Below are positions 1 to 40,507 of a stretch of DNA of 64,000 nucleotides, in pieces. The position numbers and the translations under genes were made by a program. Origin of the DNA: Trichomonas vaginalis G3 (lineage: Eukaryota > Parabasalia > Trichomonadida > Trichomonadidae). The DNA is taken from positions 9,796,001 to 9,860,000 of the forward strand of contig NC_067203.1 in the NCBI RefSeq assembly GCF_026262505.1. Direction: 5' to 3'. Under the pieces are notes generated by a model. It was not told the origin of the DNA. It did not search any database and worked only from the letters and a program-made list of their open reading frames with translations. The number at the start of each line of letters is the position of its first letter. Within the stretch, counting starts at the first letter, position 1.

Positions 1-1184
1 CTTAATTCATATGGACAGTTTGTTTTCTTTACAATGATTTGCTTAAATTGAGAAGAAGAACCCAGCATTGATTTTATTTTCCATTTTGCAGTGTTTAAAT
101 CACGAAGAATTAAATTTAAATCAAACTTTCCCGAATTAAAACCTATGATATTCACTTTATTGAATTCCTCATCTAGAAGTTCTTTAAATGCTTCCTTCTG
201 TTTTTCATTTAATGTATGGGACAAAGTCCCCGCCGTTTGGTCCGTTTGCGGCTTCATTAATTCTTCATATTGTTCAATATTTGATTTAGCAACTAATGAA
301 CAGGTTGAAAATAAAAATTCAATCCAATCAGAGATGAACGAATCACTTGATGTTAAGCAAAAATTCCTCGTAAATGTTTTATCACGGTCTACGACCTCGC
401 CGCTTCGGTCTGAAAGACCTTCAGGACTCAAAGAGTCCGTTTGCGGCTTTATTTTGACAGTTGATGATACCATAAATGGTTTTAAGTAAGCGTTCAAAGT
501 TGCACATTCAGAAAGTTGAAGTTCTTCTTTAGTCTCTAATGTTTCGAAGTCAAAAGTAATATAATATCTTGTTGGTTTATAATATTCCTGCAAATTGTGA
601 GCTAATAGCCATTGATATATCTTCTGTTTCGTGATATGTGGTGCATATGGTTGTTGTGTGTTTTGCAATTGAACGTCTTGAATTAATCTTCCATTATTTT
701 CTTTACATTTCTCACAATGTTTTAAAAATCTTCTTTGGTTTTTCCTTTCTGGGTCATCACGGATAGAATATACTTCTTCTTTGCAAAAGGGGCAAACTTT
801 ATATCCTGTGAGTGCTTCAACGTCTGTAATTCTGTCAGCGTGAAGTTTTCCACATGGACTCTGTGTTAATAAAATATTTACTGTTTCAAATTCTGGATCT
901 ATCATTATTGATTCCACTAATGGAAAGTCTACCTTATTTATGTCTACGTCTTCTGGTTGAGGGTCACAATAATAAAAATCAATATTAACGTTTAACATTC
1001 TTGCTAACCTCTCACTTTCTGATGAAATGTCAAATCCTTCATATGCATCTATGGCTTCATTTAAATAACTTCTACGAGTTTTAGGATTAACACCATCAGG
1101 AATGTTATAGAAGCGTTTAAATAACCTTCTACCTTCGGCTCTTATTTGATTATCATTCATTTTAGCTGTTCCGTTTTTGTTCAT
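1..1184 (-). CDS. Maverick/Polinton DNA polymerase B, N-terminal part (cut by window edge)
   Basis: An open frame of 394 codons runs from an ATG at 1184 to the window edge with no stop; I checked it line by line. It has a Cys pair 'CPFC' followed by 'HCEKC' near residues 132-165, which looks like a zinc finger. Next comes an exonuclease I motif 'TFDFETLE' near residue 210 and an exonuclease II-like motif 'IIGFNSGKFDLNLI' near residue 350. This order is that of the protein-primed family B polymerases (DNA_pol_B_2) carried by Mavericks, Polintons and related viruses; the palm and thumb would lie outside the window. The two minus-strand genes upstream fit one element. Two GC-rich segments (218-254 and 386-449) interrupt the AT-rich frame without breaking it. 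No host-type TCAYTW initiator is seen at the ATG. Confidence 0.85.
   Translation of the reverse strand, partial: MNKNGTAKMNDNQIRAEGRRLFKRFYNIPDGVNPKTRRSYLNEAIDAYEGFDISSESERLARMLNVNIDFYYCDPQPEDVDINKVDFPLVESIMIDPEFETVNILLTQSPCGKLHADRITDVEALTGYKVCPFCKEEVYSIRDDPERKNQRRFLKHCEKCKENNGRLIQDVQLQNTQQPYAPHITKQKIYQWLLAHNLQEYYKPTRYYITFDFETLETKEELQLSECATLNAYLKPFMVSSTVKIKPQTDSLSPEGLSDRSGEVVDRDKTFTRNFCLTSSDSFISDWIEFLFSTCSLVAKSNIEQYEELMKPQTDQTAGTLSHTLNEKQKEAFKELLDEEFNKVNIIGFNSGKFDLNLILRDLNTAKWKIKSMLGSSSQFKQIIVKKTNCPYEL
218..254 (-). repeat. GC-rich in-frame hairpin insert, short copy
   Basis: This segment contains the perfect hairpin GGGAC-aaa-GTCCC (218-230) and ends with the 15-mer gtccgtttgcggctt (240-254), which recurs at 435-449. 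It is far richer in GC than the surrounding coding sequence and encodes 'KPQTDQTAGTLSH' in the polymerase frame. Confidence 0.7.
386..449 (-). repeat. GC-rich in-frame hairpin insert, long copy
   Basis: Three short hairpins are stacked here: GGTC-tac-GACC (386-396), GGTCT-gaa-AGACC (407-419) and GGACTC-aaa-GAGTCC (424-438). They are followed by the same 15-mer gtccgtttgcggctt (435-449) as the copy at 240-254. It adds about 21 residues starting 'KPQTDSLSPEG' to the polymerase without breaking the frame. Confidence 0.75.
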
Positions 1185-1247
1185 TTATGTAAGAATAAAA
1201 AATTAAAAAATAAATAAAAATAAAGTTTATTTTTTTAAAGTCCAGGG

Positions 1248-2360
1248 CTAAAGTCCATAAAATGAATTAAGAACACATAAATTTTTATCATCTGCGACGT
1301 GACGAATACATTTTAATTTACTCAAGAATGCGTACCCTGATACATTAAATCTAATTCCTGTCTTATTTAATTTCACAACTTTGAAAAGGAATGTATGAAT
1401 AGCTATAAAATGATGAGATGATGTTTTATGGGTTGCTTCCATTTTTTCTGAAATAAATGAATAAATATAATGTTTATAAGTTTTCATATCTTTTATATTC
1501 TTAATAACGAATGGTATAGACCTTTCAACTTCGTCTTCCTTCGGTGCTGTTCTTTCATATGAAACATTATTAGTATCTTCAATAATGAAACCACAATCGC
1601 ATAAAATTTTATATGTACCAATTGTTTCTTTTGATATTTTATCTAACAAATCAAAAACTTTATCAACACCTGTACATTTATTTAAATAATAATTTGTGTA
1701 AATATCATGGTCTTCTTTCTTAATCGTATTTGTTGCATATGTTACATTTTTCAGTGCTTTTTTGAATTTTTCAGAATCAAGAGGAGGTGAAAGTAATATA
1801 CATGGATAATCTCCATCGTCAATAAATTGTAACTTATGTTTATGAATAAATTTTGTGCCTTCTTCTGAAAGTGTTTCATCTATTTCACCATCTAATAAAT
1901 TTTTAGTAGATTCCAAAAAGTAATTTTTATATCTTTCTTCATGAGATTTTTGAACTTCTGATTCTGAAGCTGGGATATTCATTAAACCCTCTACTTCATT
2001 CTCATTATATTTTTCAACTTCTCTTAATTCCTTAATTTTTTCATCTATTTCATCTCTTATTTTTTCCAGTCTTTCAATTTCATCATATTCATCATCTTTA
2101 ATCCGTTCTTCATAATATTCAGGGAAAACATCAGGTTCTTTAGGTTTTTCTTCTTCAGATGTGGGATATAAGAAATTTATAACATCATCTTTATTCATTT
2201 TTCCATCATAATCTAAATCATTTAATAACTCCGCGAATTTTTGACAATTTCTTAAATAATATTTATTAACTTCATAACTCGCCTCCTCTAATATATCCTT
2301 TATTTCCTCGTTTGTGAATCCCAATTTTTTAACGTCGTTAGTCTTGACACTCATTTTCAT
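1248..2360 (-). CDS. Unknown 370-residue Maverick-associated protein
   Basis: I do not recognise a family. The N-terminal 70 residues are helical with an EF-hand-like 'DLDYDGKMNKDDV' stretch near residue 50, then an acidic, probably coiled-coil section (about 70-130). The C-terminal half has mixed composition with a 'CDCGF' pair and several His residues. It starts 63 bp upstream of the polymerase gene on the same strand, so the two may belong to one element. An AT-only 17-mer (2367-2383) directly upstream recurs before the next gene at 3036-3052. Both ATGs at 2360 and 2354 are usable. Coding status rests on length and context. Confidence 0.7.
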   Translation of the reverse strand: MKMSVKTNDVKKLGFTNEEIKDILEEASYEVNKYYLRNCQKFAELLNDLDYDGKMNKDDVINFLYPTSEEEKPKEPDVFPEYYEERIKDDEYDEIERLEKIRDEIDEKIKELREVEKYNENEVEGLMNIPASESEVQKSHEERYKNYFLESTKNLLDGEIDETLSEEGTKFIHKHKLQFIDDGDYPCILLSPPLDSEKFKKALKNVTYATNTIKKEDHDIYTNYYLNKCTGVDKVFDLLDKISKETIGTYKILCDCGFIIEDTNNVSYERTAPKEDEVERSIPFVIKNIKDMKTYKHYIYSFISEKMEATHKTSSHHFIAIHTFLFKVVKLNKTGIRFNVSGYAFLSKLKCIRHVADDKNLCVLNSFYGL

Positions 2361-2366
2361 ACGAAT

Positions 2367-2383
2367 TAAAAAAATAAATTATT
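2367..2383 (-). promoter_or_regulatory. AT-only 17-mer upstream of the 1248-2360 gene
   Basis: The minus strand reads AATAATTTATTTTTTTA, ending 7 bases before the ATG. The identical 17-mer lies at 3036-3052 upstream of the next minus-strand gene. Low complexity makes chance possible; a promoter role is inference. Confidence 0.3.
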
Positions 2384-2424
2384 CAAAAAATGTAAGACAT
2401 GAATTTTTAAAGTTTATTTTTCAT

Positions 2425-3009
2425 TCATGAATGATAATTATATCTGATTTCTTTTACTCTCTCATACATACTAGATTTGAAGAATTCGGAACTTTTACCA
2501 TAATCTCCTAAATGTTTTCTTATCCCTAACGTGTGCCAGTTATTATATGAAACTGATAAACTTTATCTTTATCTTTACACCTTTCATCACTTCCAATATA
2601 TTTATATCTCAGTTTTGATTTAGCATTTTCATATTCATTAGCGTTTAATAATTCACAGTCTTCCTTTTTAAATATGTTTAAGATATTCAGGATTTAATAC
2701 TCTACGTTTATATGCTCCTAACTTAGTTCTAAAGGTTTTTCTACAAAATTTAGGAATTCCATCCTCTTGAATGTCATCAATGATTTCCATTTCATTATTT
2801 TCAATTTCTTCTTCTCGTTTATGAGGTCTTTGATTATGACTCCATTGATTCCATGAAATTAAATATTCTTTATCATTATATTTATACCTCATTAGCTTAT
2901 TTTGGCTTTCATATTCATTTAATAATTCACAATCTTCATTTTTAAATTGAAGTTTAACCCATTCAGGATTTAAACAATGTTTAATTAATCGCGGAATATC
3001 TGACATCAT
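2425..3009 (-). pseudogene. Frameshifted small gene with a duplicated domain, Maverick region
   Basis: The intact first part (2668-3009) encodes 113 residues with the string 'NPEWVKLQFKNEDCELL' followed by 'RYKYNDKEYLISWNQWSH'. Downstream the same pattern resumes in other frames: 'NPEYLKH', then 'FKKEDCELLN' with 'LRYKYIGS' after a one-base shift near 2668, then 'SYNNWHTLGIRKHLGD' after a second shift near 2545, ending at a TGA at 2425-2427. So the original gene probably held two copies of a W-rich domain and the second copy is broken by two indels. Family unknown. An alternative is that the 113-residue protein is functional and only the tail is dead. Confidence 0.6.
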
Positions 3010-3035
3010 CTATATATAGCTTCTTTTATAAAAGA

Positions 3036-3052
3036 TAAAAAAATAAATTATT
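3036..3052 (-). promoter_or_regulatory. AT-only 17-mer upstream of the 2425-3009 gene
   Basis: Same sequence as at 2367-2383, 26 bases before the ATG. A tatatatag motif (about 3011-3019) near this ATG also recurs around 3112-3120. Confidence 0.3.
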
Positions 3053-3326
3053 TTAAAATTAATGTTAATTTTTTTAATGTGTTTATAAATAAATATATTT
3101 TAATGCATCGTCTATATATAGATGTAACAAAAAAAGTCACACAACCCGCACTCATATACTACTTTTAAAATATCTAATAATTAATAAAGATTTTCTTAAT
3201 AAATAGATTGATTCTTATGAGTTCTTATATTGTATCGGTTAAAAACAAAAGTATTGAGAGAATAACGACTTTTTTCTGACAAAGAAAAAAAAAATTCCGA
3301 GAAAGATTTACATGTTAAAATATCCA

Positions 3327-3335
3327 TCATTTATT
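3327..3335 (+). promoter_or_regulatory. Initiator (Inr) TCATTTATT for the ubiquitin-like fusion gene
   Basis: TCATTTATT fits the trichomonad initiator TCAYTW and ends 5 bases before the ATG at 3341. The inverted paralogue has the same motif (15228-15236). The preceding 60 bases are also similar between the two genes, including 'aacgactttttt' and a poly-A stretch. Confidence 0.7.
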
Positions 3336-3340
3336 GAATC

Positions 3341-4123
3341 ATGATTTCAATCACTGTTGAGCTAAATCAATGCAAGAAAATAATTGCAATTGATCCTAAT
3401 ATAAGCTCAACAGAATTACTTAACAAGATTGCAGCAGAATTTAGAGTATGCAAAGATGATATCAAAGTAACATATGGTACAAAGCAAATTCATTGTGGTC
3501 GTCCTTTATCAGATTACAATATACAAGATGACTGTGTGATCAATATACGTCTGAGGTGCCTCGGAGGAAAACCTGTCATTTATTTATATCCAAAAGAAGA
3601 GATTGATGTGAAAGTAAATATTAAAGTCAATGATGGTGTTTTCTCTTTTGTTTATCCATCATTCGACGAAGGAAGTACATGGAACGTCAAAGCTTCACCA
3701 ACAGGCGAAATCAATCACAGAGGAAAGAAATTGAGATATCTCTTCTGGGAAACACTCTTTTACCCTAATCTTCAGATGGACAAGGGATTTGTGATCAAAG
3801 GAAAAGATAGTGTTGAGTTCTTCGAAGAGAAATTAAAGTTTATGAATCTCAACGATTCTGAGATATGTGACTTCGTCACTTATTGGTGTCCAAAACTCGC
3901 TGCTTACAACTACCTGAAAATATACTTCCAGTTAGAAAACTTTGATGAGATGTGTCCATTATGTGTCGATCCTAAACCCGATAATATAAATAGAGTTTTC
4001 TTCGCTGCTCTACCTCTACAAACTCCTTGTGATGTTGAACCACAAGATCTTCCAAGATTCAAACGTGATGGCTTTACAGTCATTGAATGGGGTGGAACAA
4101 TTGTTTCGCAATTAAATTCGTAA
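3341..4123 (+). CDS. Ubiquitin-like module fused to a KPVIYLYP domain
   Basis: Residues 1-76 align without gaps to ubiquitin: same length, the block 'GRPLSDYNIQ' matching ubiquitin positions 53-62, Lys48 kept, and a 'LRCLGG' end at 75-76. Ile44 is Thr, Lys63 is Asp and Lys11 is Cys, so the usual hydrophobic patch and Lys63 chain site are altered. From residue 77 a 184-residue domain begins 'KPVIYLYPKEEIDVKV', with a 'LFWET' motif near 130 and a 'WCPKL' stretch; I recall similar KPVIYLYP proteins in bacteria but cannot name the family. The Gly-Gly junction suggests cleavage by a deubiquitinase, as in ubiquitin-ribosomal fusions; this is inference. The KPVIYLYP part is virtually identical at DNA level to the inverted copy at 14070-14624. 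Confidence 0.85.
   Translation: MISITVELNQCKKIIAIDPNISSTELLNKIAAEFRVCKDDIKVTYGTKQIHCGRPLSDYNIQDDCVINIRLRCLGGKPVIYLYPKEEIDVKVNIKVNDGVFSFVYPSFDEGSTWNVKASPTGEINHRGKKLRYLFWETLFYPNLQMDKGFVIKGKDSVEFFEEKLKFMNLNDSEICDFVTYWCPKLAAYNYLKIYFQLENFDEMCPLCVDPKPDNINRVFFAALPLQTPCDVEPQDLPRFKRDGFTVIEWGGTIVSQLNS
3562..4116 (+). repeat. Near-identical 555-bp inverted repeat, arm 1
   Basis: This block runs from the Gly-Gly codons to just before the stop codon and matches the reverse complement of 14070-14624 with a single difference found by eye (ggggtgg against ggggcgg). Similarity falls sharply at both edges, upstream at the ubiquitin-like module and downstream in the 3' flank. Confidence 0.9.
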
Positions 4124-14062: not shown

Positions 14063-15217
14063 TTAGAAGTTTAATTGCGAAACAATTGTTCCGCCCCATT
14101 CAATGACTGTAAAGCCATCACGTTTGAATCTTGGAAGATCTTGTGGTTCAACATCACAAGGAGTTTGTAGAGGTAGAGCAGCGAAGAAAACTCTATTTAT
14201 ATTATCGGGTTTAGGATCGACACATAATGGACACATCTCATCAAAGTTTTCTAACTGGAAGTATATTTTCAGGTAGTTGTAAGCAGCGAGTTTTGGACAC
14301 CAATAAGTGACGAAGTCACATATCTCAGAATCGTTGAGATTCATAAACTTTAATTTCTCTTCGAAGAACTCAACACTATCTTTTCCTTTGATCACAAATC
14401 CCTTGTCCATCTGAAGATTAGGGTAAAAGAGTGTTTCCCAGAAGAGATATCTCAATTTCTTTCCTCTGTGATTGATTTCGCCTGTTGGTGAAGCTTTGAC
14501 GTTCCATGTACTTCCTTCGTCGAATGATGGATAAACAAAAGAGAAAACACCATCATTGACTTTAATATTTACTTTCACATCAATCTCTTCTTTTGGATAT
14601 AAATAAATGACAGGTTTTCCTCCGCGGTTCCTCAGACATATATTGATCACACAGTGATCTTGTATATTGTAATCTGATAATGGATGATTAGGTATAATTT
14701 GCTTTGTACCACATCTTGCTCTGAATTTATCTATATCTATTCCAAATTCTGCTGCAATCATGTTAATTAATTCTGTTGAATTAATCTTATTATCAATTAC
14801 CAGGTTTCTCATCCTTCCTTCATAATTAAGGAAGATGCTAATATTTCCATTCCTAGAAGAATTAGAATAATTTTTGATTAGATGAACAGCTTTTTCATCA
14901 TGAGGAATGTTCTTGTAGAATGAAAATACTTTATTAAGAGAAGGAATTCCGAGAACTGAAGTGAAAGTTTCTTCAACTTCTTCGACTTCATCTTGAGTCT
15001 TGAAATCAACAGTGCGTGCACGACTAATCATCTTAAACATGTCATCTTTACCGTTATATTCTGCGAGGTTTTCAAACAAATTTGAGAATTGACAAGCTGT
15101 CAAAGTTGCGTAATTAAGAATTTTGCATATCTCTAATGGTTTCCTTTCAGATAAAAATTCATCATCATCAATATATTCTGATATGTTTTCTCCTATTTCC
15201 TTCCAATTTTGCTGCAT
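14063..15217 (-). CDS. Ubiquitin-like/KPVIYLYP fusion with a 124-residue N-terminal extension
   Basis: Paralogue of the gene at 3341. Residues 1-124 resemble the N-terminal segment of trichomonad ankyrin/BTB proteins ('EICKILNYATLTACQF', 'MFKMISRARTVDF'). Residues 125-200 are a ubiquitin-like module of exactly 76 residues ending 'LRNRGG', with 'PLSDYNIQ' and Lys48 kept and Ile44 replaced by Arg. From 201 on the KPVIYLYP domain is identical in protein to the other copy except the last residue. The start is supported by an initiator at 15228-15236. Because the ubiquitin-like module is internal here, cleavage after GG would release a 200-residue conjugatable protein with an N-terminal adaptor; that is inference. 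Confidence 0.85.
   Translation of the reverse strand: MQQNWKEIGENISEYIDDDEFLSERKPLEICKILNYATLTACQFSNLFENLAEYNGKDDMFKMISRARTVDFKTQDEVEEVEETFTSVLGIPSLNKVFSFYKNIPHDEKAVHLIKNYSNSSRNGNISIFLNYEGRMRNLVIDNKINSTELINMIAAEFGIDIDKFRARCGTKQIIPNHPLSDYNIQDHCVINICLRNRGGKPVIYLYPKEEIDVKVNIKVNDGVFSFVYPSFDEGSTWNVKASPTGEINHRGKKLRYLFWETLFYPNLQMDKGFVIKGKDSVEFFEEKLKFMNLNDSEICDFVTYWCPKLAAYNYLKIYFQLENFDEMCPLCVDPKPDNINRVFFAALPLQTPCDVEPQDLPRFKRDGFTVIEWGGTIVSQLNF
14070..14624 (-). repeat. Near-identical 555-bp inverted repeat, arm 2
   Basis: Partner of 3562-4116, in opposite orientation about 10 kb away. The similarity begins at the Gly-Gly codons. Confidence 0.9.
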
Positions 15218-31545: not shown

Positions 31546-34500
31546 ATGAATTCCGCCCTTTTTCGCCCTCCTAAAGCGGAGAGTCGAAAGCAGGGGAAGA
31601 AGGTGTCGGAAACAGAGAAACGGAAGAAGTTACATCAAATTATCGAGGATTTAAAGAATGAGAATGAAGAATACCAAAATTATTCAACTCATCTCTCTCA
31701 AACAGAAGAATCAGTCAAAAACGATAACGAGAAGTTACTTGAAGCAATCAAAAAACATCAAGAAATGTATCGAAATCTACGCAATACACTCAAGAAATAT
31801 CCTGCGATAATGAAAAATTCTTTCAGAGCTCATCATGAAGCAAAACACAGATATAATAAGTATCACATACAGGTACAAGGTCAGAAAGATGGAAGTTGCA
31901 ATGAAAATATGCAAAAGGAAATAAGAAACGTACTTTATGATCTTCATAATATCAAAAACGATTTCAATGACACAAATCAGACCAAGCAGAAATACGAAGC
32001 TATGGTAAGGCAAATCGGCCAGCTTCAAGAGATTCAAAATGGATTATCAAAAACAAACGCCGATTTAACTGAACAATTAAACAAATATCGCGGTGAACCA
32101 AGTTTAAAGGATGTGATTCAAAGAATTGACAAAAAGGCCGAAAAGACTAAGCAATTACAAGCAGAATTAGAAAAAAAGTGCTTAGATCAAGCCGTCACTC
32201 CAGCTGAGACATGTGATCGTGTAGGTAACATGCTTGGCGAAATTGATCCGTTTGTCAATCATTTGAATGACATTCTTTCTCCAAATAATTTATCAAATAC
32301 ATCGAAATCATTGCAACTTTCAACACAAAAGAGTACAATGTTATCAAATATTGTCTCAGGACTTTATCAATCCGACGGCCAAACATCATTAACTCTCGGA
32401 AATACTCTTGAGAATATTAATAATTCGAAATTCCAGTCCGAATCCATTCAAAGACCAGCAGAAATCGAACCATCACCTGTTAAGAGTGCCCGCAACACAA
32501 ATCTTTCCAGTTCAATGAGAAATCTCCGACTCTCTACTCTTTCCAAGAACAAAGGAAAGATTTCATCAGTTGACTTTTTCATTCCTTTCTCTCAGAAGCC
32601 AATTACGAAACACGCTTACACAAAGAGCCAAGGTGCCTTCTTACCCCCGACACTTGACGAAATGAATACAAGCGCACAAGTGTCAGAAGCTCTCAGCGAA
32701 GCAGAAAGAAGGCATAAAAAGTTTGGTGATGTCGGATCGAGCGAATTTCCATCAGATTTCTTAGGATTAAGTGGCATGGAAAGTGATTCACATCAAGCAC
32801 ATACTCCTACTGAAGTTGACAGCATAAATATGAGAACATCACATAATAATTCTGATGAATCAGAACCAAGTCAAGAATTTTTATCTGATGGACCTCTCAA
32901 AATGGTCAAAGATTCCGATGGACGTCTTGTGTTCGATAACGCACCTCTAATAGACAATTTCCTCGATCCAGATGGAAAATTGATCTCTAAAAAAGGTGAC
33001 GATTATTTCAATACAGACGATGAAAAAATTGATGTCAAGAAAGATCAAGACGGATATTTCTACATCGATAAAGATGGAGAAAGGATAGAGCTAACTCCTA
33101 TCAAAGAAGAAGATTTAACAGAAAGTACACCAGAAGATGACATGAATCAAAGAAGAACGGAACATTCATCATCAACAAAACCAATTAAATCAAAGACAAT
33201 CAAAGCTCATTACGCTGACAGTGAAAACCAAGATTCAAATGCTGCTGCAAATGCTAACGAAGAAGAGGAAGAACACAAAGAAAACTCAAGCAGCGGAACT
33301 TGGGATTCCGAAGCTAACAAAAACAACAAACCAAACGAAGAAGAAGAAATTAATGAAGACAAAGACAAAAACATTGAAGAAAAAGACCTCGAAAATAAAG
33401 AAGATGATCAGAAAGAAGCTGATAAAGATGCTAATGAAGAGAAGAAAGAAACCGATGAAAACAATATGTCTTTGAAGACAATGGTTATTGAGAAAATTAC
33501 AGGAATCAAGAAAGTTGTTAAAGATGGAAAGCCATTGATAAGAAAGAGAAAAGAAAAGAAAGAAAAAGATGATGATTCTGATTATGAATATTTGACAGAT
33601 GATGAAGCATTGCATACAAAGAAATATGATAAAGATGGAAAGCCAATTGTCAGAAGACGTAAATTTGGTCATTACAAAGAAGAAGATCCAGAAAATCCAG
33701 TTGAATATGAAGAATTCACAGATGATGAAGCATTGCACACCAAAAAGAAAGTTGATGATTCCAAAAAGAAACCAATTATCCGACGTCGCAAATTCGGTCA
33801 TTACAAAGACAACGATCCCGAAAATCCAGTTGAATACGAAGAATTTACAGATGACGAAAGACTTCATGCAACAAAAGTCAAGAAAAACGGAAAACCAATG
33901 ATAAGACTTCGTAAAAACTTAGATAAGAACGATAAAGGTGAATACGACTACGAATATCTTAGTGATGATGAAGCTATGCATAAGACTCAAGTTGAGAAAG
34001 AAGGCAAACCATTAATCAGATACACGAAAGGAGATAAGAATGAAAATAATGAATATGAGTATGAATATTCAACTGATGATGAAGCATTGCATACAACACA
34101 TAATGTTGATGAAGAGAAGAAGAAACCATATGTAAGAAGACGCAAATTTGGTCATTACAAAGATGGAAGAGATGACATTGAATACGAGGAATTCACAGAT
34201 GACGAAAGACTTCACGCAAAGAAAGTGAAGAAAGATGGAAAACCAATGATCAGGAGAAGAAAGAACTTGAATAAGAACGACAACGGCGAATACGACTACG
34301 AATATTTGAGTGATGATGAAGCCATGCACAAAACGCATGTTGAGAAAGATGGCAAACCATTCATCAGATACACTAAAGGTGATAAAAATAGTGAAGGCGA
34401 ATATGAATACGAATATTCAACTGATGATGAAGCATTACACACTACACACATTGATCAAGATGGTAAACCAATTATTCGTCGTCGTCCCATTTCATCATAC

Positions 34501-37500
34501 AAAGATTCCGACTGTGACTATGAATATTTGACAGATGATGAAGCATTGCATACAAAGAAATATGATAAAGATGGAAAGCCAATTGTCAGAAGACGTAAAT
34601 TCAGTCATTACAAAGACAACGATCCCGAAAATCCAGTTGAATACGAAGAATTTACAGATGATGAAGCTCTCCATACCAAAGAATTCATTAAAGATGGAAA
34701 GCCAATGATCAGAAGAAGAAAGAACTTGGAAAAGAACGACAAAGGCGAATACGACTACGAAGAATTTACAGATGACGAAAAACTTCATGCAACAAAAGTC
34801 AAGAAAAACGGAAAACCAATGATAAGACTTCGTAAAAACTTAGATAAGAATGATAAAGGTGAATACGACTACGAATATCTTAGTGATGATGAAGCTATGC
34901 ACAAGACTAAAGTTGAGAAAGAAGGCAAACCATTAATCAGATACACGAAAGGAAATAAAAACAGTGATGGTGAGTATGAATATGAGTATTCAACCGATGA
35001 TGAAGCATTACACACAATTCAGAAGATGGAAGAAGCCAAAATGAAACCAATGATCAGAAGAAGAAAATTCGGACATTATAAAGATGGAAGAGATGATATC
35101 GAATACGAAGAATTTACAGATAATGAAGAACTTCGTGCCACAAAATTTGTTAGAGACGACAAGCCAATGATCAGGAGACGCAAGAATTTAGAACAAAATG
35201 ATGAAGGTGAATTCGATTATGAAGAATTTACTGATAACGAAGAACTCCATGCAACAAAAGTAACTAAAGATGGAATGCCTTACATCAGAAGAAGAAAGAA
35301 TTTAAAGAAGAACAGTGATGATGAATACGACTACGAATATCTTACAGATGACGAAAGACTTCACGCAAAGAAAGTGAAGAAAGATGGAAAACCAATGATC
35401 AGGAGAAGAAAGAACTTGAATAAGAACGACAACGGCGAATACGACTACGAATATTTGAGTGATGATGAAGCCATGCACAAAACGCATGTTGAGAAAGATG
35501 GCAAACCATTCATCAGATACACTAAAGGTGATAAAAATAGTGAAGGCGAATATGAATACGAATATTCAACTGATGATGAAGCATTACACACTACACACAT
35601 TGATCAAGATGGTAAACCAATTATTCGTCGTCGTCCTATTTCATCATACAAAGATTCCGACTGTGACTATGAATATTTGACAGATGATGAAGCATTGCAT
35701 ACAAAGAAGATCAGCAAGGATAACAAGCCAAAGATAAGAAGGCATAAATTTGGTCATTACAAGAGTGATGATCCAGAAAACGAAGTTGAATACGAAGAAT
35801 TTACAGACAACGAAGGGTTGCATGCAACAAAAGTCATGAAAGATGGAAAACCAATGATCAGGAGAAGGACCGGAAAGAAGGATGATTATTCTGATTATGA
35901 ATATGATTATTTCACTGATCCAGATAATCAATTTGTTGCATACAAGAGGACAGAAGTATCTGATTTCGATGCAATCAGACGTAAAAAGGAACAAGAAGAA
36001 AAAGAACAGTACACTTATGTTTATGAGGAAGAAGAAGATGACGTCTATTATTCAGATAAATTCTATTCAGATGATGAAGAAGAGAAACCTGTTTCCAAAC
36101 CAAGCTCTAGAAGATCATCATTCAGAGATGACAACGAAAACAAGAAAGAAGAAGAAGAGAAACACGAAGAAGAAGAGGAAGTTGACTACAAGCACAAAGC
36201 TTTTGCAATTCCTGTTGTCGTAACAGCAAGAAAGAAACAACAGAACCCATTCTCATCAATCAGAAAACGAAGGAAACGTCATCCAAGTGATGAAAATCTT
36301 TCTCTTCTTGAAAACGACAGAAAACGAAAATCTCTTATTGATAGCGATCCAGAGCCAAAAGAAGACCCATCGCTGACAATTACTAAGCTTGCTCAAGACA
36401 GATACGGAATAGAAGTTGCTGCAGGAACACCGGCTGAATATGTTACAGGAAACGCTGATTCCAGATGGACAAGGAATTTGATACAAAACGCTATCACAAC
36501 ACAATTAGACAGAACAAGATTGCAAGTAGAGATTGCAGACAAATCTTTGCAATTATCAGCAATTGTTGATTCCATTATCAAAGCAAAGATGGAATTGAAG
36601 CAATTGCAATCATCACTTAACAAAGGAGCTCCTCAACTAGATTTGGATGTTTTCTCGATGTCTGCAAATGACAGTCCTGATAGAAATGTTCCTAAGGAGT
36701 CAATCGAAATCCAAACAGACTTTGGAATGTCGAATCTCGAAGCACAAGATGCTGAAATCAAGAACAACATTCAGATATTATCACATGTATTTATCAATGA
36801 GCAACAAAAGAAGGTATATCAATTCCATTTCCCTCATTTACAGGAGACTTTAAGAAATGCACAACAAAAGAGCACAAGATTGAGATTGATGCAGGAAGAC
36901 TTGGAAAGAAGAATGCTTATTGTTTGCCCAGATACAGGAATGAGTGCAGCTTCAGCGGCAACACGAGAAAGGATAAGATACGAAAAGAGCATTGACCAGA
37001 GAAAATCAATGTTAGAAACAATCGAACAACAAACAGACGAATGTCATGAGCAAATTAAGAAATTGAAAGCCAAAATCAAAGATCAAAAATGTATCCAAGA
37101 TATGTTAAAGAGAAAGACAGTTGAAGGTGGTCATGTTCCTCCTCCAAACGTCAAAGCTCTCTGCAGACAACTCGATGACAACAGGGAGAAAGCAGCGAAC
37201 CTCAGTGAAAAGATTGAACTGCTTAAACACGAAGAAAGATTTACCGACGAAGGATTTGAGAAAGTTGAGAAGTTAGTTTCAGAAACAACAGTGAGAGATT
37301 TAGAAGAAATCAATAACAGATTGCTTATGAGAATAACGCAACGCAAAGTTAAATTTGATGCCATGAGAAGAACAGATCACACAACAAGAACAATTCCATT
37401 AACATTTAGTGATGATATTTCAGCCATTGAAACTCGATACAGAGACATTCAGAACGAAATGGTCATGATTCAGAGCAAGGAGAATGCTTTGATGACTAAA

Positions 37501-37578
37501 ATCAAGAAGAAGATAGCTAAGATTAAGAAGATGGGTATCCAGTTGATGGAAACATCTCTTGTTCCACCAGAAATTTAA
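31546..37578 (+). CDS. Giant coiled-coil protein with about 21 tandem acidic/basic repeats
   Basis: 2010 residues. The N-terminal 220 are coiled coil ('KLHQIIEDLKNENEEYQNYS'). Residues 220-480 are Ser-rich and disordered, followed by Asp-x-Asp-Gly stretches ('DKDGERIEL') and an extreme Glu/Lys/Asn segment (about 550-640). Residues about 675-1470 are tandem repeats of 36-41 residues with core '[DE]YEY.[ST]DDEALHTKK' then 'DGKPIIRRRK'. After another acidic part the C-terminal 380 residues are again coiled coil. No catalytic domain is seen. The architecture suggests a structural protein, perhaps of the trichomonad cytoskeleton, but this is inference. DxDG motifs could bind calcium. The repeats show signs of recent homogenisation. 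Confidence 0.85.
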   Translation: MNSALFRPPKAESRKQGKKVSETEKRKKLHQIIEDLKNENEEYQNYSTHLSQTEESVKNDNEKLLEAIKKHQEMYRNLRNTLKKYPAIMKNSFRAHHEAKHRYNKYHIQVQGQKDGSCNENMQKEIRNVLYDLHNIKNDFNDTNQTKQKYEAMVRQIGQLQEIQNGLSKTNADLTEQLNKYRGEPSLKDVIQRIDKKAEKTKQLQAELEKKCLDQAVTPAETCDRVGNMLGEIDPFVNHLNDILSPNNLSNTSKSLQLSTQKSTMLSNIVSGLYQSDGQTSLTLGNTLENINNSKFQSESIQRPAEIEPSPVKSARNTNLSSSMRNLRLSTLSKNKGKISSVDFFIPFSQKPITKHAYTKSQGAFLPPTLDEMNTSAQVSEALSEAERRHKKFGDVGSSEFPSDFLGLSGMESDSHQAHTPTEVDSINMRTSHNNSDESEPSQEFLSDGPLKMVKDSDGRLVFDNAPLIDNFLDPDGKLISKKGDDYFNTDDEKIDVKKDQDGYFYIDKDGERIELTPIKEEDLTESTPEDDMNQRRTEHSSSTKPIKSKTIKAHYADSENQDSNAAANANEEEEEHKENSSSGTWDSEANKNNKPNEEEEINEDKDKNIEEKDLENKEDDQKEADKDANEEKKETDENNMSLKTMVIEKITGIKKVVKDGKPLIRKRKEKKEKDDDSDYEYLTDDEALHTKKYDKDGKPIVRRRKFGHYKEEDPENPVEYEEFTDDEALHTKKKVDDSKKKPIIRRRKFGHYKDNDPENPVEYEEFTDDERLHATKVKKNGKPMIRLRKNLDKNDKGEYDYEYLSDDEAMHKTQVEKEGKPLIRYTKGDKNENNEYEYEYSTDDEALHTTHNVDEEKKKPYVRRRKFGHYKDGRDDIEYEEFTDDERLHAKKVKKDGKPMIRRRKNLNKNDNGEYDYEYLSDDEAMHKTHVEKDGKPFIRYTKGDKNSEGEYEYEYSTDDEALHTTHIDQDGKPIIRRRPISSYKDSDCDYEYLTDDEALHTKKYDKDGKPIVRRRKFSHYKDNDPENPVEYEEFTDDEALHTKEFIKDGKPMIRRRKNLEKNDKGEYDYEEFTDDEKLHATKVKKNGKPMIRLRKNLDKNDKGEYDYEYLSDDEAMHKTKVEKEGKPLIRYTKGNKNSDGEYEYEYSTDDEALHTIQKMEEAKMKPMIRRRKFGHYKDGRDDIEYEEFTDNEELRATKFVRDDKPMIRRRKNLEQNDEGEFDYEEFTDNEELHATKVTKDGMPYIRRRKNLKKNSDDEYDYEYLTDDERLHAKKVKKDGKPMIRRRKNLNKNDNGEYDYEYLSDDEAMHKTHVEKDGKPFIRYTKGDKNSEGEYEYEYSTDDEALHTTHIDQDGKPIIRRRPISSYKDSDCDYEYLTDDEALHTKKISKDNKPKIRRHKFGHYKSDDPENEVEYEEFTDNEGLHATKVMKDGKPMIRRRTGKKDDYSDYEYDYFTDPDNQFVAYKRTEVSDFDAIRRKKEQEEKEQYTYVYEEEEDDVYYSDKFYSDDEEEKPVSKPSSRRSSFRDDNENKKEEEEKHEEEEEVDYKHKAFAIPVVVTARKKQQNPFSSIRKRRKRHPSDENLSLLENDRKRKSLIDSDPEPKEDPSLTITKLAQDRYGIEVAAGTPAEYVTGNADSRWTRNLIQNAITTQLDRTRLQVEIADKSLQLSAIVDSIIKAKMELKQLQSSLNKGAPQLDLDVFSMSANDSPDRNVPKESIEIQTDFGMSNLEAQDAEIKNNIQILSHVFINEQQKKVYQFHFPHLQETLRNAQQKSTRLRLMQEDLERRMLIVCPDTGMSAASAATRERIRYEKSIDQRKSMLETIEQQTDECHEQIKKLKAKIKDQKCIQDMLKRKTVEGGHVPPPNVKALCRQLDDNREKAANLSEKIELLKHEERFTDEGFEKVEKLVSETTVRDLEEINNRLLMRITQRKVKFDAMRRTDHTTRTIPLTFSDDISAIETRYRDIQNEMVMIQSKENALMTKIKKKIAKIKKMGIQLMETSLVPPEI
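33565..35930 (+). repeat. Tandem coding repeats, about 21 units of 110-125 bp
   Basis: I count 20 good units plus one degenerate unit. Units fall into types ending 'KFGHYKDNDPENPV', 'KNLDKNDKGEY', 'YTKGDKNSEGEY' and 'PISSYKDSDC' that recur in order, which indicates higher-order duplication. Two 365-bp blocks (34195-34559 and 35344-35708) are identical apart from one synonymous base that I found. Confidence 0.9.
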
Positions 37579-37705
37579 GATTTTATATTTTATTTTTTTA
37601 TTTATTGTTCATTTATTTTGTAAATATAATTTTCATTTCAATATACTGCTTATGCTTTATTTTTCAACATTCTTGTTATCCTGATTAGAAATAGAAAAGT
37701 GACAA

Positions 37706-38257
37706 ATGACAAACAGCTTCAAAAGTGTATCTGAAATCCCAGTTCCTGACAATTTATCTGATCTCGAGCGGATTGAATTTAATGCTTATAAGCAAGCACT
37801 AGTCGAATTAGAGCAAGAATGGCTTCAACTCAAGAATGGAGAAAATCCTGATCAAAAAGCTTGCCAAACTTATATAAATGACATAAAAACCAAGAGAATA
37901 CAACAAGCACAAGATAGGTTAAACCTTAGAAAGGAAATAATCGAAAAACAAGCAGCAAAAGAAAAAGAAAGAATCTTACAACAGCAAGAAGATTACAAGA
38001 AGCTTCTTTTCGAAAGAATTATTAAGTCGTACCACCAGTCTTATAATACAGTTACCTCTCAACTCAAAGAATTAATGGATAAAGATTACGGACAGTTCAT
38101 AGCCCAAAACGGAATTACTTTTCCGGATATCCATAACGAACAACAGGTCCGCACACGTATGTCACAGCCAGAAGAACCAAAAATTCGCTTATCTTCAGCT
38201 GAAAGTGAACAAGACGTCCGCTTAATACAGCAAATACTACAAAATGCAGGACAATAA
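37706..38257 (+). CDS. Sds3/BRMS1-like protein
   Basis: 183 residues. The section 'ELEQEWLQLKNGENPDQKACQTYINDIKTKR' and the long charged helix that follows match the Sds3-like pattern: a Glu-rich helix, then 'L..G.HP', then a basic helix leading to 'EREY/KE' repeats. Sds3/BRMS1 proteins dimerise through this coiled coil inside Sin3 histone-deacetylase complexes. The C-terminal part is helical with a final 'RLIQQILQNAGQ'. The match is by eye and other coiled-coil families could mimic it. It lies 127 bp downstream of the giant repeat gene on the same strand. Confidence 0.55.
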   Translation: MTNSFKSVSEIPVPDNLSDLERIEFNAYKQALVELEQEWLQLKNGENPDQKACQTYINDIKTKRIQQAQDRLNLRKEIIEKQAAKEKERILQQQEDYKKLLFERIIKSYHQSYNTVTSQLKELMDKDYGQFIAQNGITFPDIHNEQQVRTRMSQPEEPKIRLSSAESEQDVRLIQQILQNAGQ

Positions 38258-38563
38258 CTCCTCAAAATGTTTTATATCATACTTGTTTTTTAATAAAAAT
38301 TTTTTTTTCTATCAGCATCTTATCGAGTCCACCTTTTTTACATTATGAATCTGTAATGAAACGAATTGTTCAAACTTTCTTCTCCTAAATTATCTTTTGA
38401 GATAACCCTTTTCAACGGAAAACATTTAGCTTTTTTTTCCAAATCCCATGGCGTTTTGTAATGTTTTACAATAGATATCTACAAATATTTAATTATCATA
38501 TTCATAAAAGAATAAAACTCATGATGTTTAAAATTGTCACGTTTTTTGCGCATTTGGAAGTTT

Positions 38564-40507
38564 ATGAGTCATCAAGATCAGAAGTACCAGAACTTCCAAA
38601 TGAATCAATTAAAGATGTATCAGAACCAGCAACAACAATACAGACAAATGCAAAATCAGCCAATGCAAAATATGAATTTTCAGCAAATGTACCAGAATCA
38701 ATTAAAAAATTACCAGATGGCGTTCATGAATGCATACGGTTTCCCACCAAATCAGCAAAATCAAATGAACCAAATGTCAATGAAAACGCAAAATATGATG
38801 CAACCTCACCAAAACCAACAAAACCAGATGAATCAGATGCAGATGATGCCAGGAAAGATGGTTTCTCAAAATCCAGAAAATTCTCCAGCACAACCGCAAC
38901 AATCACAAACTTTTGATGCTTCTACAATGAGCAGGAGTGCATCAAATACGTCTCTGTCATCTATGGCAGGTCCTGACATGGCACAACAGAACCAACAAAT
39001 GATGAATGCTTCGAATTTTATGCAATCTCAATTTAGCATGCAAATGCCACAAAACAACCAATACCAATATCAAATGCAAATGCAGAACTCATTACAGAAC
39101 CAAATGCAAAGCCAAGTTCAAAATACTTCCACACATAATCTTTTATCACAGATGCAACAGCAACAACAACAGCAACAGCAGCAACCACAGCCATCAGCAC
39201 CTCAACAAGCTCAGCAGCAACCTCCTAAACCGCCTCAAATGCCCACACAAAAGAAGCAAAAATCAAATCAAATGAACCAAAACAAGAGGAAACCAAAGAA
39301 ACACGCAGCTCCATCAGACATCGCAGAATCACCACTTCCTCCTGCTCCAGAACAGATACAACCCCCTATCCAGCCGCAAATTCAAAATCAAATCGGAATG
39401 AACACGAATGAGATCAGCGAACTGACCAGAGTCATCACAGGAATGGGCGAAAAGAGCAAACTATACTACAGAGTATTCGGATACAACGTAAAACGCTGCG
39501 AAATCAAATCATTTCTCGAATACTTTGCAAACAACGTCTACAAATCAATTCCCAATGCAGTAAAGTACGCCATGTACATCGCCGAGCAATTCCGACAGGG
39601 CGAAGACGGTAAATTCTACAGACTTTTCGCAAATCCTTCTTGTCCGACGGTTTTTGCGCCCGTAAAAAACATCAAGCCCCAATTTCAGATTCTACAATGT
39701 GCAGCCAACAAATCTAAAGGTGTCGAGTTCAATCTTGTTCCTCCCTCTAAGCGTGGCGATGCATTTCCATACGGAGTTTTCATTCCTCAGATGCAAGATT
39801 CAAATGTTCCAATAATCATCGACGACACGACTGAAGTACTTCCCAGTTCATTCGGAGACAAGTACATGTTCTATATTATCCCACAATCTTCTAAATCTAA
39901 AATTTCTATCCGACCAGTTTTCCAAAAACCGCCCTCCACGCCCATAACTTGGTTTTCATTATGTTATGCTCAAAGCAAAGATCCTCTCGAAGTATTGTAT
40001 CAGTTGCTTGACAAGCAGCACATCAAGAGGGAGTTGTTTGACCAGACATTTGCTTTGACTCCGAAATGTACATCATGTACAAATGATCCTTTGAAACTGA
40101 TCACGCAATGCATGAAAGGAAACGCGGCATGCATCGAATGTGGAGCCCCTGTGATACTGAATGAGTTGATAATAAAAGTAAAGCCATGCGCGGAACAGAA
40201 GATAGAGAATGCTGCTGCTGCTTCTGCTCAGGAAGACGCTGTTGCAAAAACACTCCAAATTTCTCAGGTAAATATAATGCCACAGCCTCTGCCGCCTGAA
40301 CCAGAGAACCCTGAAGAGGAGAGGATAGCAATGGCACTCGGTGAATCAATATTCCAGTGCATAAGACCAAAACAAGAAGCAAGTGGTTGGATAAAGACAA
40401 AAGATGGCGAACTCTTCACGCCTGTAGAAGAAAGTAATAAATTTTATGCAAGTTCATTGTCTGAAATGGAAAAGATGCTTAGCGATTTACATGATGATTT
40501 CTTCTAA
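38564..40507 (+). CDS. Q/N/M-rich protein with a C-terminal zinc knuckle
   Basis: 647 residues from the ATG at 38564. The first 230 residues are Gln/Asn/Met-rich low complexity (a pure Gln run near 39150-39186), like activation or coactivator regions. A basic 'QKKQKSNQMNQNKRKPKKHA' segment may be a nuclear signal. The C-terminal 370 residues are ordered: 'LYYRVFGYNVKRCEIKSFLE', an aromatic-rich middle and a CxxC...CxxC pair ('CTSC' and 'CIEC', about residues 505-530) that probably binds zinc. It ends with an acidic helix. I do not recognise the family; a nuclear transcription-related role is inference. Confidence 0.7.
   Translation: MSHQDQKYQNFQMNQLKMYQNQQQQYRQMQNQPMQNMNFQQMYQNQLKNYQMAFMNAYGFPPNQQNQMNQMSMKTQNMMQPHQNQQNQMNQMQMMPGKMVSQNPENSPAQPQQSQTFDASTMSRSASNTSLSSMAGPDMAQQNQQMMNASNFMQSQFSMQMPQNNQYQYQMQMQNSLQNQMQSQVQNTSTHNLLSQMQQQQQQQQQQPQPSAPQQAQQQPPKPPQMPTQKKQKSNQMNQNKRKPKKHAAPSDIAESPLPPAPEQIQPPIQPQIQNQIGMNTNEISELTRVITGMGEKSKLYYRVFGYNVKRCEIKSFLEYFANNVYKSIPNAVKYAMYIAEQFRQGEDGKFYRLFANPSCPTVFAPVKNIKPQFQILQCAANKSKGVEFNLVPPSKRGDAFPYGVFIPQMQDSNVPIIIDDTTEVLPSSFGDKYMFYIIPQSSKSKISIRPVFQKPPSTPITWFSLCYAQSKDPLEVLYQLLDKQHIKRELFDQTFALTPKCTSCTNDPLKLITQCMKGNAACIECGAPVILNELIIKVKPCAEQKIENAAAASAQEDAVAKTLQISQVNIMPQPLPPEPENPEEERIAMALGESIFQCIRPKQEASGWIKTKDGELFTPVEESNKFYASSLSEMEKMLSDLHDDFF
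39152..39186 (+). repeat. CAG/CAA microsatellite encoding poly-Gln
   Basis: Mixed CAA and CAG triplets inside the Q-rich protein. Confidence 0.85.

Follow-up and report, generated by a model that had tools for sequence, protein, structure and literature searches.

The open reading frame at 3341..4123 of the window (the whole stretch of 64,000 nucleotides of Trichomonas vaginalis G3 DNA that was analysed) encodes a 260-aa protein in which a 76-residue ubiquitin fold with a terminal Gly-Gly is followed directly by a 184-residue domain, here called the KPV domain after its opening residues KPVIYLYP. We put at roughly 55% the reading that this is a permanent two-domain protein, whose ubiquitin-like module (Ubl) would be a fast-evolving adaptor that is not normally cut off and that presents the KPV domain. 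The two halves are probably one permanent unit because in relatives from other microbes the joint is missing the tail at which ubiquitin is cut; the variation seen at this junction likewise favours a Ubl that stays part of the mature protein. The features of the window that bear on this reading are as follows.

3327..3331, plus strand: TCATT, 14 nt 5' of the ATG, a putative Inr-like start element.
3341..4123, plus strand, stop included: open reading frame of 260 aa, Ubl plus KPV domain.
3341..3568, plus strand: Ubl module, 76 residues, ending in Gly75-Gly76; T44, N68 and R70 replace the Ile44 patch and K48 is retained.
3569..4120, plus strand: KPV domain, 184 aa, K77 to S260, without a match in Pfam, NCBIfam or PDB sequences.
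14063..15217, minus strand: paralogue of 384 aa, an N-terminal helical adaptor, a 76-residue Ubl and a KPV domain.
14846..15217, minus strand: N-terminal adaptor (residues 1-124) in the paralogue, of which T. vaginalis ankyrin-repeat proteins have a less similar version.
14618..14845, minus strand: Ubl of the paralogue, residues 125-200, with a GG end.
14066..14617, minus strand: KPV domain of the paralogue, codons 81-240 of which are identical in DNA to the copy at 3341.

The window Ubl scores above the Pfam cut-off with the PF00240 profile and its predicted model has the beta-grasp fold of the ubiquitin family, with the Ubl of Dsk2 among its nearest folds. It is identical to the ubiquitin of T. 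vaginalis itself at 19 of 76 positions. The junction of the window protein reads ...CLGGKPVIYLYPK, so that the Ubl tail is ...CLGG, and its Gly75-Gly76 terminus is that of a conjugatable modifier; as Gly76 is present, the window copy does not have the substituted or missing Gly76 that marks UFD-type fusions. The Ile44 hydrophobic patch is lost (T44, N68, R70). The original prediction, made from the letters of the DNA, of a 76-residue ubiquitin-like module with Lys48 and Thr44, joined through Gly-Gly to an undescribed KPVIYLYP domain, and of a paralogue at 14063 with a second such module behind an N-terminal adaptor-like region, is borne out. Structure prediction, which it had proposed, agrees with it for the Ubl and gives for the KPV domain a model with no significant match in a Foldseek search of the PDB.

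The KPV domain itself has zero matches among Pfam families, NCBIfam families and PDB sequences. A 40-sequence alignment headed by the window protein contains 29 invariant columns, including KPV.Y.Y towards its beginning, L.WE, F...W.P and a terminal R.G....EWGG. Where NCBI names for members were seen, they read 'hypothetical protein' or 'Ubiquitin family protein'. KPVIYLYP does not occur in the literature searched, which covered papers outside subscription journals and without their supplementary files, and within the same scope no paper mentions either of two member locus tags. A giant-virus protein from Terrestrivirus (BFVD A0A3G4ZNZ8, 406 aa) has the KPV fold (Foldseek E 3.7e-15, TMq 0.73).

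In the T. vaginalis genome (180.85 Mb in 86 contigs), 33 KPV matches were found, several of which are pieces of one gene; 29 of the 33 have no internal stop. In 21 loci a Ubl runs directly into the KPV domain. Five further loci (L024-L028) begin the domain with KPAIYLYPT and have no Ubl; an N-terminal hydrophobic stretch was recognized by eye in four of them (L024, L026, L027 and L028), while just five residues could be read ahead of the domain in L025. In L021 the KPV domain follows a divergent N-terminal region that lacks GG, the frame of L008 begins with Met at the KPV domain itself, and the remaining matches are fragments and broken copies. Several loci have more than one PF00240 match, with three in tandem in L006 and L013 and two each in L014, L015, L018, L019, L020 and L022; L017 has a stop inside the Ubl region that cuts its frame short. 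Three of the Ubl-KPV loci (L020, L022 and L023) lie together with fragments within about 10 kb (C2:25744455-25754479). A Ubl-less KPV gene (L133, C1:8859900-8863600) is interrupted by a stretch that contains a 424-aa ORF, transposase-like by eye.

Many of the 21 loci open with a helical stretch some 105-110 residues long, and a less similar version of it recurs in other T. vaginalis proteins. Of eight other loci with this region that were inspected, six have ankyrin-like repeats (repeats judged by eye), one has a coiled coil and one, L142, joins the adaptor to a Ubl without KPV. The last of these (C2:14830700-14833200) encodes about 200 aa and lacks a GG end as well. No remnant of the adaptor domain was detected 5' of the gene at 3341 by tblastn over positions 1001-3400 of the window.

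Among the 21 Ubl-KPV loci the junction reads GG-KPV in 14 and GA-KPV in seven (L012, L014, L015, L016, L020, L022 and L023). Gly75 is present in all 21 and is encoded by GGA, GGC, GGT and GGG; its invariance despite the use of all four codons suggests that selection keeps it. Codon 76 is exclusively GGA or GCA, that is, Gly or Ala, and Arg72 is found in 18 of the 20 readable modules. An invariant Gly75, a Gly or Ala at 76 and Arg72 together match the demands of a deubiquitinase cleft, and a tight hinge would explain them too. The GG members could be precursors, which a deubiquitinase would cut after Gly76 into a Ubl (or adaptor-Ubl) fit for conjugation and a KPV protein starting with Lys, the GA members being cut slowly or not at all. 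This is the main rival to a permanent fusion, kept alive as a possibility by Gly75, and we rate it as rather unlikely. The cell does possess polyubiquitin (L131), a protein that is as a rule cut at GG, and GG stands at two thirds of the T. vaginalis junctions; the seven GA loci and the lost Ile44 patch of the window copy speak against it.

Gene conversion was also considered as the source of the constant GG; it accounts for codon 76 and fits Gly75, with its four codons, less well. On the KPV tree described below, the GA junctions require five changes, of which the starred branches force at least three (four and four on the quick tree), although these figures should not be read as numbers of mutations, since gene conversion between paralogues could move KPV domains under Ubls.

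Three protein searches for relatives elsewhere returned 1135, 6521 and 2237 matches at E<=1e-3, the best 120 of each being listed; the matches of the second include ubiquitin proteins without KPV (e.g. P0122) because its query also held ubiquitin. From the matches listed, 27 junctions of metagenomic relatives outside T. vaginalis were picked by hand, as a selection and not as a full survey: seven, including the fragment P0141, have GG, one has GE and 19 have neither. In 15 of these 19 a near-perfect or related ubiquitin lacks LRGG and ends at residue 72; among the others, the fragment P0028 also ends at residue 72, P0257 ends after LR, and the junctions of P0014 and P0015 have a different form. 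Gly76 is thus substituted or absent at 20 of the 27 junctions. Given the seven GA loci in T. vaginalis and the 15 of 27 junctions elsewhere at which ubiquitin stops at residue 72, a cleavable GG is not conserved across the family; the absent LRGG counts against processing, to which the seven GG junctions elsewhere lend some support. In P0257 the Ubl that ends in LR is preceded by an E2-type domain (PF00179).

These relatives include 11 clusters (P0128-P0137 and P0139; 68 member sequences), in which ubiquitin residues 1-72 are followed directly by KPV without LRGG. Their ubiquitin is identical at 61-64 of 72 positions to a unit of P0244 and at 53-56 of 72 to T. vaginalis ubiquitin. P0244 is itself a polyubiquitin, in which four units end LRGG/M and the fifth, identical to the first at 63 of 72 positions, ends VLR/KPII; its last junction lacks what a deubiquitinase requires because GG is missing there. 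P0125 similarly has one GG unit and then one unit cut at the junction. Two others with the 72-residue junction, P0140 and P0044, match T. vaginalis ubiquitin at 68 and 64 of 72 positions. Judged by their sequences, two kinds of ubiquitin bear the 72-residue junction, which may represent a trichomonad-like line and a second line, perhaps of ciliates.

Alternatively, the ubiquitin part could be an in-built tag that marks the protein for degradation or sorting, as in the engineered, uncleavable Ub-G76V fusions; other ligases would extend chains on it, so that the fusion is short-lived or sorted. K48 and K63 are retained in all 11 of the P0128-type clusters, as are H68 and V70, with I, V or L at position 44, and the window Ubl has kept K48; Ub-G76V fusions are standard UFD substrates (PMC12552062). 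The readable T. vaginalis modules (L022 left out) point the other way, with K48 in 13 of 20, K63 in one, and H68 and V70 in eight each, and the window copy has no patch. A tag is therefore plausible for the relatives with near-perfect ubiquitin and less so for the window copy, and as an account of the latter we think it improbable.

The two domains of the preferred permanent fusion differ in how they evolve. Substitutions were counted by the Nei-Gojobori method in pairs with a KPV dS below 0.5, which gave 20 non-independent pairs covering 19 of the 21 loci (L019 and L023 fell out). The dN/dS of the KPV domain is 0-0.29 in all 20 pairs, while that of the last Ubl is 0.45-1.96 and exceeds 1 in nine; the adaptor, scored in five pairs, lies at 0.18-0.73. 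Nonsynonymous and synonymous differences are distributed unequally between Ubl and KPV in 16 of 20 pairs (Fisher p<0.05), a comparison that is confounded by swapping or conversion because the silent-site divergence of the Ubl is higher in most pairs. In no pair is dN significantly greater than dS; p<0.05 was reached in three of 20, all with dN/dS below 1. That the Ubl is far more diverged at silent sites in many pairs indicates conversion of the KPV domain or swapping of the Ubl, and the two genes of the window are the extreme case of a Ubl outstripping its KPV domain in this respect.

The four best-matched pairs, in which dS differs less than 1.5-fold between Ubl and KPV, show the same contrast: dN/dS for Ubl and KPV is 1.14 and 0.12 in L004-L010, 1.53 and 0.06 in L011-L012, 1.57 and 0.18 in L016-L017, and 1.59 and 0.14 in L009-L017, the last two over 56 codons since the Ubl frame of L017 is cut short. 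A near-neutral or faster rate in these pairs is unlike that of a conjugated ubiquitin and is a further point against processing. With Ubl dN/dS of about 1.1-1.6, the GA junctions, the tail-less relatives and the substituted patch, the processed, conjugatable ubiquitin relative that had been predicted is weakened and finds no support as a rule for the family. The alternative offered alongside it, an intact fusion in which GG is only inherited, fits better as regards intactness and is incomplete as regards inheritance, given the signs of selection on Gly75.

A dN/dS near 1 for the last Ubl in many pairs would also be expected if the Ubl were a decaying relic of chance fusions to polyubiquitin, drifting while the KPV domain alone matters. 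L008, which starts at KPV, and L017, with its stop in the Ubl region, would fit such decay. We consider this quite improbable, since the core of the fold is retained in the T. vaginalis modules (Leu56 in 18 of 19, Tyr59 in 19 of 19, Leu or Ile67 in 19 of 19), as is Gly75; moreover, 29 of the 33 KPV matches are free of internal stops and the triple PF00240 units persist in L006 and L013.

The survey of bacteria that accompanied the original prediction as a suggestion found the KPV domain, which is elsewhere characteristic of gut bacteria, to be abundant in Clostridia. Scanning one genome per species, we found at least 571 KPV-encoding stretches in bacteria; by their record titles, the best 80 of these loci are nearly all from Clostridia, with one from Synergistaceae and three candidate-phylum records. 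In 86 ORFs from those loci, chosen for their EWGG end, the domain is C-terminal or nearly so, fewer than 30 residues coming after it, and many of the N-termini look by eye like lipoprotein, membrane-anchor or longer export-type sequences. Some database relatives among the matches listed have choline-binding, SH3 or dockerin modules. From this spread we infer that the eukaryotic copies are of bacterial origin, the direction of transfer resting on distribution as the tree is unrooted. By analogy with its bacterial and probably surface-exposed relatives, our guess is that the KPV domain may bind bacteria or their glycans.

The KPV tree has 100 rows, of which 31 are bacterial and the rest were picked by hand, including 18 of the 21 Ubl-KPV loci. 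It leaves out P0126, in which no complete domain was found, L017, L019 and L023, whose motif varies or whose domain is incomplete, and also L008. The bacterial group has a support of 97/87. All 11 P0128-type rows fall into a single clade (100/99) nested in relatives without ubiquitin. AU tests reject a single clade both for the 42 rows with a ubiquitin, Ubl or Ubl-like N-terminus (L021, P0014, P0015 and P0018 included; p-AU 0.002) and for the 14 rows with an LRGG-less junction (p-AU 0.0019). A single ancient ubiquitin fusion is rejected by the former, the groups being based on architecture but set after the trees had been seen. Because these single-clade constraints are rejected, several fusions, or repeated loss or exchange of domains, must be assumed.

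The favoured permanent fusion could have arisen and work as follows. A bacterial-type C-terminal domain, exported in Clostridia and here without a signal peptide, would have come to lie behind an N-terminal ubiquitin fold that serves as an integral and normally uncut adaptor. T. vaginalis would then have amplified the family. Purifying selection together with gene conversion would have kept the KPV domain constant, and the Ubl, in many copies preceded by the adaptor domain that the parasite's ankyrin proteins also carry, would have diversified. The Ubl may thus be a variable docking surface that chooses partners, and the KPV domain the conserved working or binding part, the effector.

Ubiquitin is not the only eukaryotic protein that the KPV domain follows. 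Among the matches listed, it comes after alpha-tubulin in clusters P0198, P0201 and P0202 (11 members) and ends proteins with a Ras-type Pfam match in P0206, P0207, P0215, P0216, P0220 and P0223 (43 members); these fusions lie on short metagenomic contigs, yet each occurs in several clusters. The alignment of P0198 to an alpha-tubulin of solved structure covers residues 1-435 of 451, where P0198 switches to KPV, so that the C-terminal tail of the tubulin is replaced. Many KPV relatives among the matches listed also have C1-type zinc modules. A tentative and broader reading is that anaerobic protists use the bacterial-type domain as a C-terminal cap in place of the LRGG of ubiquitin, the alpha-tubulin tail or the end of Ras-like GTPases, creating locked look-alikes without a usable tail; T. 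vaginalis would have diversified the ubiquitin version, perhaps into cytosolic detectors or binders of engulfed bacteria.

Both integral Ubl proteins and fusions of ubiquitin are known kinds of protein; what is new is the KPV partner and the natural fusion of ubiquitin without its tail. Ubiquitin precursor fusions carry the cell's own ubiquitin and get cut. With polyubiquitin and the Ub-eL40 and Ub-eS31 precursors the window protein shares an N-terminal ubiquitin fold, GG at 75-76 and a partner directly after it, but its module has just 19 of 76 residues in common with that ubiquitin, and its relatives have GA, GE or no LRGG. Rad23 and Dsk2 are integral Ubl-domain proteins, with the Ubl fixed in a larger protein, as would be the case here; unlike them, the KPV fusions have a bacterial-type partner, which the Ubl abuts with a tail of ubiquitin's length, and a Ubl that diversifies across some 20 paralogues. 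Ciliate BUBL loci, which combine ubiquitin-like and bacterial intein-like domains, also place a bacterial-type domain after a ubiquitin-type module in microbial eukaryotes; none of the present searches linked KPV to inteins.

Engineered Ub-G76V (PMC12552062) resembles seven of the 21 T. vaginalis loci and the tail-less relatives in being fused in frame without GG. The KPV fusions differ in being natural and repeated and in lacking residues 73-76 in some lines, and the window copy has GG. Algal ubiquitin fusions such as Ubiq-NiSOD likewise join ubiquitin to new partners with a patchy distribution (PMC6332867), whereas the KPV junction is often without LRGG and its partner is uncharacterised and common to Clostridia. 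If our reading is right, nature has repeatedly joined ubiquitin to a partner without leaving a cut site between them, as is done in laboratory tools, and the partner domain is in neither family library searched, Pfam or NCBIfam. Solving the KPV domain would inform bacterial surface biology as well as parasite biology, and the layout of P0244, four GG units and then one without, provides a direct control within the cell.

Elsewhere in the window, the 8 kb at positions 32001-40000 differ from the rest in having a strong AT skew that keeps the same sign throughout, with values of 0.19 to 0.36.
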